A stretch of 64,000 bases of DNA from contig NZ_CP060139.1 of the NCBI RefSeq assembly GCF_014524565.1, positions 1,247,501 through 1,311,500 of the forward strand, read 5' to 3'. The stretch comes from Croceimicrobium hydrocarbonivorans. GTDB lineage: Bacteria; Bacteroidota; Bacteroidia; Flavobacteriales; Schleiferiaceae. The position numbers were made by a program, and so were the translations under genes. The notes beneath the pieces were generated by a model. The model searched no databases, was not told the origin of the DNA, and saw only the letters and a list, made by a program, of their open reading frames with translations. How positions within the stretch are numbered: the stretch's first letter is position 1; every line of letters starts with the position of its first letter. Positions 38,046 to 61,868 of the stretch are shown here, piece after piece.

Positions 38046-40550
38046 TTATTTACTGTTAGCCAGTTTCTTGATCTCTGAAATTTGGCTGGCAAAGAAAGAA
38101 CTTTTTTCGGGATATTTCAACATCAGAATTTCATAGGCTTGAATTGCCTTTTTATAGTGCTTTTGTCTGATGTAAACCTTAGCCAGGGTCTCGGTTACCA
38201 AACCGCCTCCTTGATCTTCTTCCTTAGCTTCCGGCACTTCCATTTTAGTCGCTTTAGGACTGGCTGGTACGGCTTCGCGACTTTGCTTTTTCAACTCTGG
38301 TAATTTCTCAACAAAGGAGTCCAGCAAATCAATCTTTTTAGAGATCTCTTCTTTCGGTTCTTGATCCTCAAGCTCCTTCTTCTCTTCTACCTTAGGTTTA
38401 GCCGGCTCCATTTGCGCTTCACCTTTGGCAATGCGCTTTAACCACTGAGAAAAACTCGGCTCCTTGGCTGGGCTGGGACTTATTAGTTCCGGTTCTGAAA
38501 CTTCTTCAATAGGCTCCGTTTCTGCTATTGCTGTTTCTGTTTCTGTTTCTGTTTCTGTTTCTGTTTCTGAATCAATTTCATTCTCGGCTAAGTTCTCCTC
38601 CGCCTCCGAGCGGGATTCCAATTCATTTGCTTCAGTCGGCTCACCCCCTCCTGAATCTTCTTCAGTGGCTGGCTGTTCCGCTGTAGAAATAGTTTCTTCG
38701 TTTTCGGCCGGAAGATTTTCGCCCTCCTCCCCTTCAATAGACTTAGCTTCTTCAGGTTCTTCAGCCTCTTCTTCTTGCTCTTGCTCCTTCTGCGCTAGCG
38801 CCGCTTCCAGACTTCTCTTGCGCTCTTCGATCAGCTCATTCATACGCTGCTCACGCAAATCCGATAAGGAATCTGAATCCCCTTCGTCTTTAGCTCCGCT
38901 GCGCATTTTCTCGGCTAATTGTTCTATGCGACGAATCTCTGAATCCAAATCCTCTTCCGGTTCTTCTTCAGCTTCCACCTGCTCTTCCGCCACGGGCGCT
39001 TTTATTTCTTCTGAACTTGCGGTGGTATCTGGTTCGGAATCTTCGGCTTTAAGCTCTCCCTCAACTTCTTCAAGTTCCGGATCAGTCTTCAAGTCCGCTT
39101 CTTCTTCAACTTGACTATCCTCTTCTGGTTCCAATACCACTGTTTCCGCCTGAACCTCGTCTTCTGCCTTCGGTAGTTTAATCTCTACCTCAAAAAGCTG
39201 CTCTTCATTCAGAGGTAAATCCGCCATCAGTGCTTCTAACTGACGATGTTCCTCCATCAGCACTTCCAGCTCCTCCCGACTGAGAGCATCGCTATTGCGC
39301 AGTGTCTCCAAACGATCGCGAATCATGCGAATACGAGAGGCTAAGGCTAAATCACTTTTCGCCTCCTCGGGACTTAAATCTGTAGGAATAGTGGCTTCCG
39401 AATTTTCTTCTTTGGTATCTTCTGTATAAGAAGAGTTTTGATCTTCTATTCCTTCCTCTTCTTCAATGGATTCTTCCGGACCTGCAACAGTGCTTGAGTC
39501 CAGGTCTTCTTCCTCATCCCAATCTACTTCTTCCTCTTCAGGTTCTTCAATACTTTCAAAACGACGAGCAAAACGACGACGAATTAAGGCTTCTATATCG
39601 ATGGGCGAATCAGCCCAAGGCTCACGCTCTTCCTCAAAGGAAAGGCTCGAATCTTGTTCTGGCTCCTTAGCTTGTTCAACAGAATCTTCTTCAGTGGAAA
39701 TTGGTTCCTCATCCTCTTCTTCCGGCTCGGATACAGGCTCGGGTAGTTCTTCTTGTATTTCGCCTGGACTTTCCTCTGCATGGACACCTAGAACTTCATT
39801 CTCAGTTGCAGCCACAGCCTCTTCTGCTTTAGTATCTGCAACTTCAATTTCATCTGTCGATTCAGCCTGAACTGAATCCTCTATAAGTTCTTCTTTGGGT
39901 TCTGACTCGGGGGCCGATGGTTTATCCTGCTCAAAAAGCTTGGCTTCGCCTCCGGATTTTTGCGACTCAAATTGTTCGCGTACCTGACGATTTCGCTCTA
40001 ATATGGCTTTAACTCTCTCCTGAGGACTTAGCTCTGAAAGGTTTTCAGGTAAGGCAGAAGGCAAGTCTTTTTTAGGAGGCGGTTGCACTTCAGCTGGCTT
40101 CTCCGCCTGTGGCTCTATTTTTTCTTCCGACTTACTTTCAAGGCTTGCTAATGCTTCTACCTCTTTGTTTTCGGGAACAGGAATCTCTTCTACTGGCGGC
40201 TTAGATTCTTCAAGCACTTCCTGTTCTGCAATAGGAGCTTCGGTCATCTGCGCTAATACAGGTGGACTGCTCACCGACTCTACCTCAACTGTCTCAATAC
40301 CGCTATTTAAGGTAGGTTTTCGATTTTCGAAGAGTTCAAAAAGTACGGCTCGGTCATTGGTAAGGACCGCGGTTTTCCCCAATTGCTGATTAAAGAGATG
40401 TTCGGAAGAAGTGCGTAAACGCAGGCCATACATCAGTTGTATCAACTGACTGTAAGGATATTTCCGAGCCAAATCACGCAAATCATCCACCAGATAATCT
40501 GCTACATGTTTGGGGTCTTCAAGTAGTTTATGAAAATCTTCGGTTCTCAA
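38046..40550 (-). CDS. Large acidic Glu-rich protein with C-terminal TPR
   Basis: An 834-residue soluble protein. The N-terminal 75 residues are folded-looking (FHKLLEDPKHVADYLVDDL, YPYSQLIQLMYGLRL), and the last 60 form a TPR-like pair (TLAKVYIRQKHYKKAIQAYE, LMLKYPEKSSFFASQISEI). Between them lie about 600 residues extremely rich in Glu, with Ser, Ala and Pro, probably disordered, including six Glu-Thr dipeptides. The start is a TTG immediately after the lptE stop. The same N-terminus/TPR-end layout is common in this gene neighbourhood in Bacteroidota. Function unknown; an assembly or scaffold role is a guess. Confidence 0.75.
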   Translation of the reverse strand: MRTEDFHKLLEDPKHVADYLVDDLRDLARKYPYSQLIQLMYGLRLRTSSEHLFNQQLGKTAVLTNDRAVLFELFENRKPTLNSGIETVEVESVSSPPVLAQMTEAPIAEQEVLEESKPPVEEIPVPENKEVEALASLESKSEEKIEPQAEKPAEVQPPPKKDLPSALPENLSELSPQERVKAILERNRQVREQFESQKSGGEAKLFEQDKPSAPESEPKEELIEDSVQAESTDEIEVADTKAEEAVAATENEVLGVHAEESPGEIQEELPEPVSEPEEEDEEPISTEEDSVEQAKEPEQDSSLSFEEEREPWADSPIDIEALIRRRFARRFESIEEPEEEEVDWDEEEDLDSSTVAGPEESIEEEEGIEDQNSSYTEDTKEENSEATIPTDLSPEEAKSDLALASRIRMIRDRLETLRNSDALSREELEVLMEEHRQLEALMADLPLNEEQLFEVEIKLPKAEDEVQAETVVLEPEEDSQVEEEADLKTDPELEEVEGELKAEDSEPDTTASSEEIKAPVAEEQVEAEEEPEEDLDSEIRRIEQLAEKMRSGAKDEGDSDSLSDLREQRMNELIEERKRSLEAALAQKEQEQEEEAEEPEEAKSIEGEEGENLPAENEETISTAEQPATEEDSGGGEPTEANELESRSEAEENLAENEIDSETETETETETETAIAETEPIEEVSEPELISPSPAKEPSFSQWLKRIAKGEAQMEPAKPKVEEKKELEDQEPKEEISKKIDLLDSFVEKLPELKKQSREAVPASPKATKMEVPEAKEEDQGGGLVTETLAKVYIRQKHYKKAIQAYEILMLKYPEKSSFFASQISEIKKLANSK
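38531..38569. repeat. Hexanucleotide repeat CTGTTT, six copies
   Basis: Six tandem CTGTTT units (38531-38566) plus a partial seventh, coding on the minus strand for a (Glu-Thr)6 tract in the acidic protein. Hexamer changes keep the frame, so length could vary between strains without inactivating the gene. Confidence 0.85.
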
Positions 40551-60071: not shown

Positions 60072-60196
60072 AAGGCATGAATTTGATTTAATAAAGACCA
60101 AATCTGTGCCACTGCTTTCGCTGATGGATTTCACTTAGGGAAAGAGCTGATAAACTTCTGAAATGTTGTCCTCAGCTTGAGTAAAAGAAAAAGGAG

Positions 60197-60268
60197 TAGC
60201 CCCGGCGAGAATCGAACTCGCATCTAAAGTTTAGGAAACTTCTATTCTATCCATTGAACTACGGGGCC
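60197..60268 (-). tRNA. tRNA-Arg (anticodon CCU)
   Basis: On the minus strand the 72 bases fold as a tRNA: acceptor GGCCCCG with CGGGGCT (first pair G-U), D-arm GTTC...GAAT, anticodon stem GAAGT/ACTTT with loop TTCCTAA, T-arm GCGAG TTCGATT CTCGC, discriminator A. Anticodon CCU reads AGG (Arg). No CCA is encoded. A near-consensus promoter box (GACCTTTG) lies 6 bases upstream of the 5' end. Copies of its 5' half occur in the adjacent repeat array. Confidence 0.92.
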
Positions 60269-60274
60269 AAGCAA

Positions 60275-60282
60275 CAAAGGTC
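60275..60282 (-). promoter_or_regulatory. Probable -7 box of tRNA-Arg(CCU)
   Basis: GACCTTTG on the minus strand differs from TAnnTTTG at one base. The same position is altered in the pseudo-tRNA repeat copies, which therefore seem promoterless. Confidence 0.35.
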
Positions 60283-60283
60283 C

Positions 60284-60447
60284 GAAGCCTTTTCTTTATC
60301 TGCAATGGCTTCAGTAATATTATTAGTTATAGCCTTAGTAAAGGCCTAAACGAAATTCTCTCCTTGTCAAGAATAATTTGGAAACTCTATTCCCTGCCTG
60401 CCGGTAGGCGGGTATCCATTGAAAACGAGGTCATGTCACTATGCACT
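60284..60447. repeat. tRNA-derived tandem repeat, unit 1 (164 bp)
   Basis: The unit begins with an inverted repeat GAAGCC...GGCTTC (60284-60312) and ends with a sequence homologous to the 5' half of tRNA-Arg(CCU) and its upstream flank (minus strand). That half-tRNA has a 20-bp palindrome-like insertion at 60393-60412. No gene is visible inside. It is followed directly by unit 2. Confidence 0.85.
60393..60412. repeat. Palindromic insert in pseudo-tRNA, copy 1
   Basis: CCTGCCTGCCGGTAGGCGGG: an imperfect palindrome that pairs along its whole length on the plus strand if two G-T pairs are allowed. It sits exactly between the bases that correspond to GGATA and GAATAG of the tRNA D-loop/D-stem. 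Confidence 0.85.
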
Positions 60448-60611
60448 GAAGCCTATTCTTTATCTGCAATGGCTTCTGTAATAATATTAGCTATAGCCTT
60501 AGTATAGTCCTAAACGAAATTCTCTCCTTGTAAAGAATAATTTGGAAACTCTATTCCCTGCCTGACGGTAGGCGGGTATCCATTGAAAACGGGGCCATGA
60601 CACTATGCACT
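60448..60611. repeat. tRNA-derived tandem repeat, unit 2 (164 bp)
   Basis: Same length and order as unit 1, with few differences. Here the acceptor 5' strand GGCCCCGT of tRNA-Arg(CCU) is kept intact on the minus strand, followed by TTTCAATGGATA and the palindromic insert (60557-60576, one base different from copy 1). Confidence 0.85.
60557..60576. repeat. Palindromic insert in pseudo-tRNA, copy 2
   Basis: CCTGCCTGACGGTAGGCGGG, one base different from copy 1, in the same place in the half-tRNA. Confidence 0.85.
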
Positions 60612-60648
60612 GAAGCCTATTCTTTATCTGCAATGGCATTATAATACA

Positions 60649-60924
60649 CTAATCATTTCGGCCATTGACTCCGAACTTGTGCTTGGCCAATTCCCTAAAT
60701 CTTTCGCGAAAACTTCCTCCTTTCCATTTTAACTCTAATTGGCGAGCGGAATTCAAATCGGTAGTTTCTTCGACTTTTAAAACCTTCCATGGTCGATAAT
60801 ATCTATTGGAGCGAGTCTTCCCAGAATTATGTTGCTCTAGACGGATCTTCAGGTTTGAAGTGAGGCCAATATAAAGCCTAGAATGACTGGGACTCCACAA
60901 AGCGTAAACGAAATACCTTTTCAC
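60649..60924 (-). CDS. GIY-YIG domain nuclease (single domain)
   Basis: A 91-residue protein beginning with GTG at 60924. The GIY-YIG core is visible: FVYALWSPSHSRLYIGLT (Tyr pair as V-Y-A and Y-I-G), then the Arg in NLKIRLEQHNSG, and LELKWKGG in the place of the metal-binding Glu. Proteins of this stand-alone type (UPF0213/YhbQ-like) are common in Bacteroidota; the natural substrate is not known. It is embedded in the tRNA-derived repeat array, in the same orientation as the tRNA genes on both sides. Confidence 0.88.
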   Translation of the reverse strand: MKRYFVYALWSPSHSRLYIGLTSNLKIRLEQHNSGKTRSNRYYRPWKVLKVEETTDLNSARQLELKWKGGSFRERFRELAKHKFGVNGRND

Positions 60925-60994
60925 TTATCAAACTAAATGAAATAGTTCTAATTGAATTGTCTGATAAACGTTTGAGAAATAGGAAACTCTATTC

Positions 60995-61014
60995 CCTGCC
61001 TGACGGTAGGCGGG
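60995..61014. repeat. Palindromic insert in pseudo-tRNA, copy 3
   Basis: CCTGCCTGACGGTAGGCGGG, identical to copy 2, at the right end of the unit that carries the GIY-YIG gene. Confidence 0.85.
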
Positions 61015-61049
61015 TATCCATTGAAAACGGGGTCATGTCACTATGCACT

Positions 61050-61100
61050 GAAGCCTTTTCTTTATCTGCAATGGCTTCGGTTATGGTATTAGCTCAAACC
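61050..61100. repeat. Partial repeat unit at the right end of the array
   Basis: Starts with the same GAAGCC...GGCTTC inverted repeat (61050-61078) and remains alignable with units 1 and 2 to about 61100, where unique sequence begins. No half-tRNA follows, so the array ends here. Confidence 0.75.
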
Positions 61101-61112
61101 CATTAAGCTGGA

Positions 61113-61868
61113 TTACCTCATCCAACCTTCGATCCGGTAATTTTTAGATAAAAGCATCCTTTCCTCTTGGGACTTTGCACTTTGGTACCACAATTCAAAT
61201 CGAGCTGCATAAGGTTTATCCCAATCCCCTTCATAAATCGTGAGATGATCCGATAAGCGAAAAAGCTTAAAGGAGTCAGTAGCATTAAAAACCTTCATTT
61301 TTGACCTTAAGGCTAAGCTGTTACCAGATAATGGATCATTATGACTAAGCTCAAAGGCCTTCAAGTAAATTTCCCCGCTATCCAAATTAGATAGCCAAGC
61401 TTGATAGCTATAAATGCCCGCTAGGAACTGGGAAACTATTTCAAAGTCAATTTGATCCTTTGTAATCTGGTTAATACTATCAGGCTGATCCTTTTTAAAT
61501 ACGAGTTGACCTGACTTTTCACCTACCGGTTCGTATACCTGCAGGCCCGTTGGAATTTCTAAATCATCTGCATAATAATCATAGGGTGAATTATAGAATA
61601 ATAAGCCTCCGATGATCATCCCAAGACAAGTGAGCAGGCCCGTTAAAGCAAGTTGGGCCAAGCCTCTGTTATAATCTTTACGCAAAAATCTTCGCAAGGA
61701 TATTATTCCAGACACAATAATGGCGGCCCAAGGCAAAGCCAGAGCAAATAAGTGGATCGAAAAACTACTAGAAACACTAAATATGAAAACACCAATTAAG
61801 CCAAAGAGGATAATGCCATAAATAGGGAGATACCATTTTTCAAGATAAAACTGTAAAAGGCTTTTCAT
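61113..61868 (-). CDS. Membrane protein of unknown function
   Basis: A 251-residue protein with three to four membrane helices in the first 100 residues (LPIYGIILFGLIGVFIFSVS, SIHLFALALPWAAIIVSGII, LALTGLLTCLGMIIGGLLF), followed by a soluble, probably extracytoplasmic, domain with no known motif. It lies between the repeat array and the second tRNA. Function unknown. Confidence 0.65.
   Translation of the reverse strand: MKSLLQFYLEKWYLPIYGIILFGLIGVFIFSVSSSFSIHLFALALPWAAIIVSGIISLRRFLRKDYNRGLAQLALTGLLTCLGMIIGGLLFYNSPYDYYADDLEIPTGLQVYEPVGEKSGQLVFKKDQPDSINQITKDQIDFEIVSQFLAGIYSYQAWLSNLDSGEIYLKAFELSHNDPLSGNSLALRSKMKVFNATDSFKLFRLSDHLTIYEGDWDKPYAARFELWYQSAKSQEERMLLSKNYRIEGWMR

Follow-up and report, generated by a model that had tools for sequence, protein, structure and literature searches.

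Why would the gene for tRNA-Arg(CCU) in Croceimicrobium hydrocarbonivorans, a bacterium of the order Flavobacteriales, be flanked by an array of repeats that contain pieces of the same gene? The initial annotation of the window, i.e., the entire stretch of 64,000 nucleotides analyzed here, described tandem 164-bp units, each ending in a copy of the 5' half of this tRNA, and knew of no described element of such a form. The array is real, but that description overlooked both a 20-mer that splits each of the tRNA copies and an open reading frame (ORF) for a GIY-YIG endonuclease that lies inside the array.

The array in the window

Two complete 164-bp units are present, as the annotation had it, along with the beginning of a third unit and a later part-unit (Table 1). 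Read on the minus strand, the array starts with a flank, an interrupted tRNA 5' half and the nuclease gene, continues with two successive sets of a flank, an interrupted 5' half and a link, and ends with a flank and the complete tRNA gene. The first two units are 93% identical to each other, and the nuclease gene, located between the start of unit 3 and the last part-unit, is the longest ORF of the array in the ORF list.

Table 1. Coordinates of the tRNA-Arg array and its parts in the window
Feature	Position	Strand	Evidence
Complete tRNA-Arg(CCT), putative target tRNA	60196..60268	-	ARAGORN; Rfam RF00005, 67.2 bits
Native region upstream of the tRNA (promoter), from which the flank of each unit derives	60269..60334	-	matched beside the complete tRNA-Arg(CCT) of same-genus G001
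Unit 1, 164 bp: flank copy, link of ~45 bp, tRNA 5' half with 20-mer	60284..60447	-	
Interrupted tRNA-Arg 5'-half copy 1	60380..60432	-	
20-bp near-palindrome, D-loop of copy 1	60393..60412	.	
Unit 2, 164 bp	60448..60611	-	
Interrupted tRNA-Arg 5'-half copy 2	60544..60596	-	
20-bp near-palindrome in copy 2	60557..60576	.	
Start of unit 3, first 35 bp, breaks off at the GIY-YIG gene	60612..60646	-	
GIY-YIG endonuclease ORF, 91 aa, GTG start	60649..60924	-	PF01541, E = 3.1e-14
Later part-unit of the array	60977..61094		
Interrupted tRNA-Arg 5'-half copy, upstream of the GIY-YIG gene	60982..61034	-	
20-bp near-palindrome in the copy upstream of the GIY-YIG gene	60995..61014	.	
Outermost flank copy, end of the array	61035..61094	-	

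On the minus strand, each copy consists of the tRNA upstream region, the tRNA 5' end, TTCAATGGATA, the 20-mer, read on this strand as CCCGCCTACCG(G/T)CAGGCAGG, and GAATAGAGTTTCC, in this order. The 20-mer CCTGCCTG(C/A)CGGTAGGCGGG, which is found in all three tRNA copies, is a near-palindrome inserted in the D-loop of the duplicated 5' half of tRNA-Arg(CCU). Inspection by eye bears out what had been said of the copies themselves, namely, that TTCAATGGATA and GAATAGAGTTTCC are kept, that one base is lost, that the 3' half is missing and that the promoter box is changed. The reported resemblance to the 5' half of the tRNA is also beyond chance: with the 20-mer removed, the local scores of the three copies against the tRNA 5' half are 44, 53 and 51, compared with maxima of 27, 30 and 24 for shuffled sequences, and for each copy none of 1000 shuffles was as good. 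When the 20-mer is retained, the observed score is equaled by 38, 1 and 0 shuffles per 1000, respectively, so that in this form unit 1 alone is weak. A search of the same genome with the 164-bp unit, which the annotation had suggested, gave matches at the array alone, and elsewhere only 24-bp matches at the 20-mer. An assembly artefact, considered there as a potential source of the array, appears unlikely because other genomes share the architecture, including one (locus L160) in which three tandem 78-bp palindrome-bearing 5' halves precede a complete tRNA-Arg(CCT).

The links in these units may derive from nuclease genes that have collapsed, a reading that is suggestive for unit 1 only: matches to the start of the GIY-YIG gene as good as the observed one were obtained in 10 of 1000 shuffles for unit 1 and in 79 of 1000 for unit 2. 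Derivation of the link from the 3' half of the tRNA found no support, with 950 of 1000 shuffles equally good. In the same-genus genomes G002-G005, the tRNA-Arg(CCU) and tRNA-Arg(CCG) genes are 33-119 bp apart and no element was found in the interval between them; in the window, the two genes are separated by 1,762 bp, an interval that holds one further gene besides the array.

The protein encoded in the array contains a GIY-YIG catalytic domain with the conserved residues. In an alignment of 31 nucleases, Y7, S11, Y18, H32, A60, E64 and K68 are invariant, and all of these are present in the window protein, whereas G20, R28 and T40 are at least 90% conserved. The nearest solved structures by sequence profile are 1zg2 (E = 1.4e-15) and SLX1 (E = 1.5e-9). 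The window protein is in this respect similar to the small GIY-YIG proteins of the UPF0213/SLX1 type, for which we know of no association with tRNA genes. Searches of NCBIfam and PHROGs gave no name for the window protein; a PHROG annotated 'homing endonuclease' matched its relative in the genome G022 (2.7e-6) and no PHROG matched the window protein itself. With regard to a link to defence systems, PADLOC gave a single marginal match (9.5e-4). With the G022 protein as the only query, a search of phages and plasmids yielded 11 phage records (10 of Rhizobium phages and one uncultured, some phages appearing twice) and 3 plasmid records, all below 60% identity. The window ORF probably encodes a selfish, DNA-cutting nuclease. 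The Rhizobium phages of 154-208 kb (H1-H10) encode GIY-YIG proteins that are 38-40% identical to the G022 relative.

Nuclease genes and neighboring tRNA genes

The region upstream of the tRNA and the front of the gene have indeed been duplicated repeatedly, as proposed in the initial annotation, but the array is not the isolated oddity that it seemed to be: loci in which a GIY-YIG gene is associated with a tRNA recur, and the array is one of this class. In the same genome, a second GIY-YIG locus (at 535 kb) has a complete tRNA-Asp gene on one side and a palindrome-bearing copy of tRNA-Asp on the other side, and at a third (2485 kb) there are only T-arm fragments similar to tRNA-Met, accompanied by a palindrome. 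In G022, the 5' half of tRNA-Arg(TCT) is split by CCTGCCTGCCGGCAGGCAGG and followed by a GIY-YIG ORF that runs into the complete tRNA-Arg(TCT) gene. The first protein search of genome contigs detected three loci, in Ignavibacteriales, Cyclobacteriaceae and Omnitrophota, each of which, on inspection by eye, also brings a GIY-YIG gene together with a tRNA and an incomplete tRNA copy. A search with an alignment of seven proteins identified 52 places in 24 of the 88 genomes of the same family. With the alignment of 31 proteins, the nuclease was found in 270 of 396 genomes of the class (E <= 1e-10) and, at the 1e-15 threshold, in 44 of 80 genomes of the phylum (31 of the 61 outside the class), these class and phylum counts being nuclease matches, not all of which are tRNA-associated. 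Some of the nuclease copies in the match tables for the family, class and phylum have in-frame stops or are partial, which is consistent with the decay of a selfish gene.

A complete tRNA gene is located within 500 bp of the nuclease gene at 120 of the 160 loci examined, i.e., 26 of the 37 stronger family loci (with the two tandem pairs, in G003 and G007, kept as separate rows), 55 of the 68 class loci (drawn from the best-scoring among the places listed) and 39 of the 55 further loci (40 picked from the mid and low ranks among the places listed in the phylum search, plus the 15 best). In the class and later sets, tandem copies were counted once per locus; L145 and L147 were removed as duplicates of L156 and L157, and L205, L206 and L208 were omitted from the count of further loci as places already counted. 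The expected adjacency is about 1%, by arithmetic from 33 tRNA genes in 4.04 Mb, a background density taken from the genome of C. hydrocarbonivorans only. The nearest tRNA is co-oriented with the nuclease gene in all 120 cases and commonly lies 15-70 bp upstream of it. A position beside the target is typical of free-standing GIY-YIG homing endonucleases, and, with the tRNA as the putative target, this is the position of the nuclease gene at these 120 loci. The association weakens toward the lower-scoring matches: among the weak GIY-YIG matches of the family search, 1 of 15 has a tRNA within 1000 bp, and among the further loci the fraction drops with the score band, from 12 of 14 through 16 of 20 to 11 of 21. 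There is no complete tRNA within 500 bp at 40 of the 160 loci, some of which are at contig ends.

Tandem arrays also recur. Ten equal-scoring GIY-YIG genes with a period of 457 bp are arranged in tandem beside tRNA-Met in G207 (L156, G207:C9:905000-911600), and there are five tandem nuclease copies in G492 and eight in G258. At L183, three tandem 83-bp copies of tRNA-Ala with a replaced anticodon arm are found ahead of the complete gene. The window array looks like the same phenomenon.

When mapped onto a tree of 107 nucleases, the adjacent tRNA's isotype changes 38 times, compared to 71.2 +/- 2.3 changes with shuffled labels, although five of the rows have no isotype label and the labels of rows without a complete tRNA, which come from remnants, may be noisy (L152, of 50 aa, was left out of the tree). 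The host family changes 60 times compared to 65.4 +/- 1.3, a weak signal, which is gone in the 66 rows from families other than that of the window (52 changes compared to 53.4 +/- 1.7), where the isotype gives 29 changes compared to 45.7. Because the C-termini of the nucleases can overlap tRNA sequence, they were trimmed, and in the resulting tree, with one row per genome and isotype, there are 40 isotype changes compared to 70.4 with shuffled labels and 62 changes of host family compared to 64.2. The nearest nuclease from another host family has the same isotype in 27 of 66 cases in the trimmed tree, where a fraction of 0.117 is expected, and in 32 of 66 cases in the untrimmed tree. The window nuclease itself has a long branch; its nearest row is labelled Pro and the next four are labelled Arg. 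With the isotype changes far below those in the shuffles and the host signal weak or absent, the nuclease lineages appear to track the tRNA, as homing endonucleases should, and to be tied to its isotype far more than to the host.

Palindromes in tRNA remnants

Partial tRNA copies are present at 93 of the 105 loci of two surveyed sets. A GC-rich palindrome with a stem of at least 6 abuts 125 of 222 remnant pieces, compared to 239 of 11,100 control positions in the same loci, when hairpins that merely follow a 3' end are excluded; a looser count, 129 of 222 compared to 4.1%, includes hairpins after the 3' ends of remnants, which are possibly terminators. In or at the inner end of a tRNA remnant, 94 palindromes were found at 61 of the 105 loci, with tRNA identified on one side only in 60 cases and on both sides in 34. 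Nearly all of the both-sided palindromes (31 of 34) replace at least 3 nt of the tRNA; in 27 of the 34, some of the anticodon arm is lost, and in 13 the anticodon is gone entirely, the typical gap in the tRNA extending from position 24-31 to 41-46 or from 36-38 to 47-55. The three pure insertions are all in tRNA-Arg. By eye, several tRNA-Arg copies and one tRNA-Ala copy, in the host families f1, f3, f49 and f66, have a palindrome at the same D-loop site as the window, and the palindromes at this shared site differ in sequence but keep their palindromic character.

The automatic remnant detector placed the window's own tRNA copies below its threshold and missed palindromes with longer loops, such as those of L160, so that the counts are conservative in that respect; a few of the remnant isotypes are look-alike labels, e.g., Ala copies labelled Phe. 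Many of the remnants, by eye, are without half of the acceptor stem. On folding, the cloverleaf was the best structure for none of nine remnants, whereas the complete tRNA-Ala did give one.

The 20-mer of the window has 15 exact copies elsewhere in the same genome, in stretches without a detected GIY-YIG gene, and the palindrome is therefore not exclusive to the element. An island at 3651-3705 kb (G000:C1, L035-L038) contains 14 exact copies of the 20-mer, on one strand throughout and, as judged by eye, cleanly inserted in AACCGCAAAG... repeats, including four pairs 77-122 bp apart; a GIY-YIG gene was looked for in this island and none was found.

A candidate homing element and its alternatives

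We consider it likely that the array consists of a chromosomal GIY-YIG homing-endonuclease element that targets a tRNA gene, and of the remnants of this element. Under this scenario, a nuclease specific for one tRNA isotype would cut the gene for that tRNA, and repair or recombination would yield a complete tRNA gene and a broken copy; the nuclease gene, in the same orientation and placed between the two or next to them, could thereby share the transcription of the tRNA. The broken copy would carry a palindrome within one arm or in place of part of it, mostly the anticodon arm, or in the D-loop, as in several tRNA-Arg cases and in the window. The palindrome could make the copy uncuttable and/or non-functional as a tRNA and limit recombination with the intact gene; protection from re-cutting is our first choice for its role, with disabling of the RNA product or reduction of recombination as the alternatives. 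Repeated insertion cycles, unequal recombination or segmental amplification similar to that of the phage nuclease SegB would produce tandem units, and subsequent decay of the nuclease genes might leave units on their own, such as the 164-bp repeats. A fuller version, which we offer tentatively as somewhat short of probable, would have minimal selfish elements, common in the phylum of the window and each devoted to one tRNA isotype, in which the homing nuclease rides the transcription unit of the tRNA and the displaced tRNA copy is disarmed by a palindromic hairpin swapped for part of an arm, usually the anticodon arm; the palindrome would serve both as target-site immunity and as the mark of the element, and repeated cycles would generate tandem arrays of tRNA pseudogenes.

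The palindromes, however, could be an independent miniature mobile repeat, similar to REPs or small dispersed repeats, that collects in neutral tRNA pseudogenes. This is a serious rival because of the 15 further exact 20-mers in stretches without a detected GIY-YIG gene, and it is compatible with the apparently clean insertions (by eye) in the repeats of the 3.65-3.70 Mb island, which has no detected GIY-YIG gene, and with the three tRNA-Arg cases of pure insertion. Nevertheless, with 31 of the 34 both-sided palindromes being replacements that are concentrated at a small number of tRNA positions across different host families, and with one D-loop site harboring differing but still palindromic sequences, we find independent repeats unlikely. 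Another possibility is a conflict at the RNA level: the GIY-YIG protein would cleave a single tRNA species, and the co-transcribed tRNA copies with a swapped arm would serve as decoys or antidotes. The co-orientation and isotype linkage of the nuclease, tRNA and remnants would fit such a conflict, and so would the (partial) loss of the anticodon arm at 27 of the 34 both-sided palindromes, that of the whole anticodon at 13, and the L183 locus, with its three arm-replaced tRNA-Ala copies. Against this, GIY-YIG enzymes are described as nicking or cleaving DNA in the account that we consulted (PMC2988022). Given also the many remnants without half of the acceptor stem (by eye) and the lack of a cloverleaf in all nine folded remnants, we regard an RNA-level conflict as improbable.

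Two more conventional explanations fare worse. Displaced tRNA fragments are a hallmark of mobile elements of the integrase type, and the fragments in the array would fit a leftover of such an element that reconstituted the tRNA on integration; yet the longest ORF listed in the array is the 91-aa nuclease, which leaves none of integrase size there, and the small unit of a nuclease plus a remnant recurs with diverse tRNAs, which makes this origin very unlikely. Direct repeats can also expand unaided, and the element could be dead in the window, but a mere tandem duplication of the tRNA flank, with the nuclease as an unrelated neighbor, is barely credible in view of the adjacency at 120 of 160 loci, compared to the expected 1% or so, and the strand agreement in 120 of 120.

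For the favored homing element, the closest worked-out parallel is, by analogy, SegB of T-even phages, a free-standing GIY-YIG homing endonuclease whose gene is located among tRNA genes (PMC13096335; PMC2988022). According to its description, SegB cuts inside tRNA genes, and its nuclease activity is required for the tandem amplification of a tRNA-Tyr/segB segment (PMC13096335). The loci analyzed here resemble SegB, as far as that description goes, in having a GIY-YIG gene beside tRNA genes of many isotypes and in the linked tandem amplification of a tRNA-plus-nuclease segment. Unlike SegB, they reside in bacterial genomes, the proteins, of ~80-100 aa, are predicted cutters, the nuclease clades are tied to the tRNA isotype, and the flanking tRNA copies carry palindromes. 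Phages and genomic islands that integrate into tRNA genes keep a complete tRNA and leave a partial copy, and both are also seen at the GIY-YIG loci; the differences are that the window array has no ORF of integrase size, that the unit spans only a few hundred bases, and that, in the remnants at the GIY-YIG loci, part of an arm is replaced by a palindrome. Small dispersed repeats of cyanobacteria are short palindromes as well. With REPs and REPINs, as far as these are described (PMC3733652, PMC3116915), the palindromes share their short length, multiple copies in this genome and, by eye, clean insertions in the island. In contrast to both REPs/REPINs and small dispersed repeats, the palindromes of the tRNA remnants mostly replace tRNA segments, at recurring positions and with varied sequence.

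Free-standing GIY-YIG homing endonucleases near tRNA genes, then, are already known from phages, judging from the account of SegB (PMC13096335). Among the open-licence papers listed in the literature searches, none was seen to describe GIY-YIG genes of bacterial chromosomes that are accompanied by tRNA remnants with palindromes, and it is for these remnants that we found no described precedent. Because tRNA genes are essential and conserved, they offer a selfish gene an ideal place to reside, although a risky one; the elements seem to have dealt with the risk by retaining one complete tRNA next to a duplicate that is disabled. If this interpretation is correct, it would explain many of the tRNA fragments and tandem repeats in the phylum, extend SegB-like tRNA amplification beyond phages to bacterial chromosomes, provide a large collection of small DNA-cutting enzymes of natural origin and with isotype specificity, and allow direct tests of where short bacterial palindromes come from and what they do.

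Between the array and tRNA-Arg(CCG), the window encodes a 251-aa protein (61113-61868) that appears membrane-like by eye and gave no Pfam match; DNA resembling this region was found, again by eye, in G001. In the latter genome (L041, ~1171-1580), a tRNA-Arg(CCT)-like 3' half as in the window is followed by a run of N and, after this run, by a complete tRNA-Arg(CCT) with a different 3' half and a similar upstream region. Elsewhere in the window, at 38531-38569, there is a perfect 6-bp microsatellite, CTGTTT x6.5.
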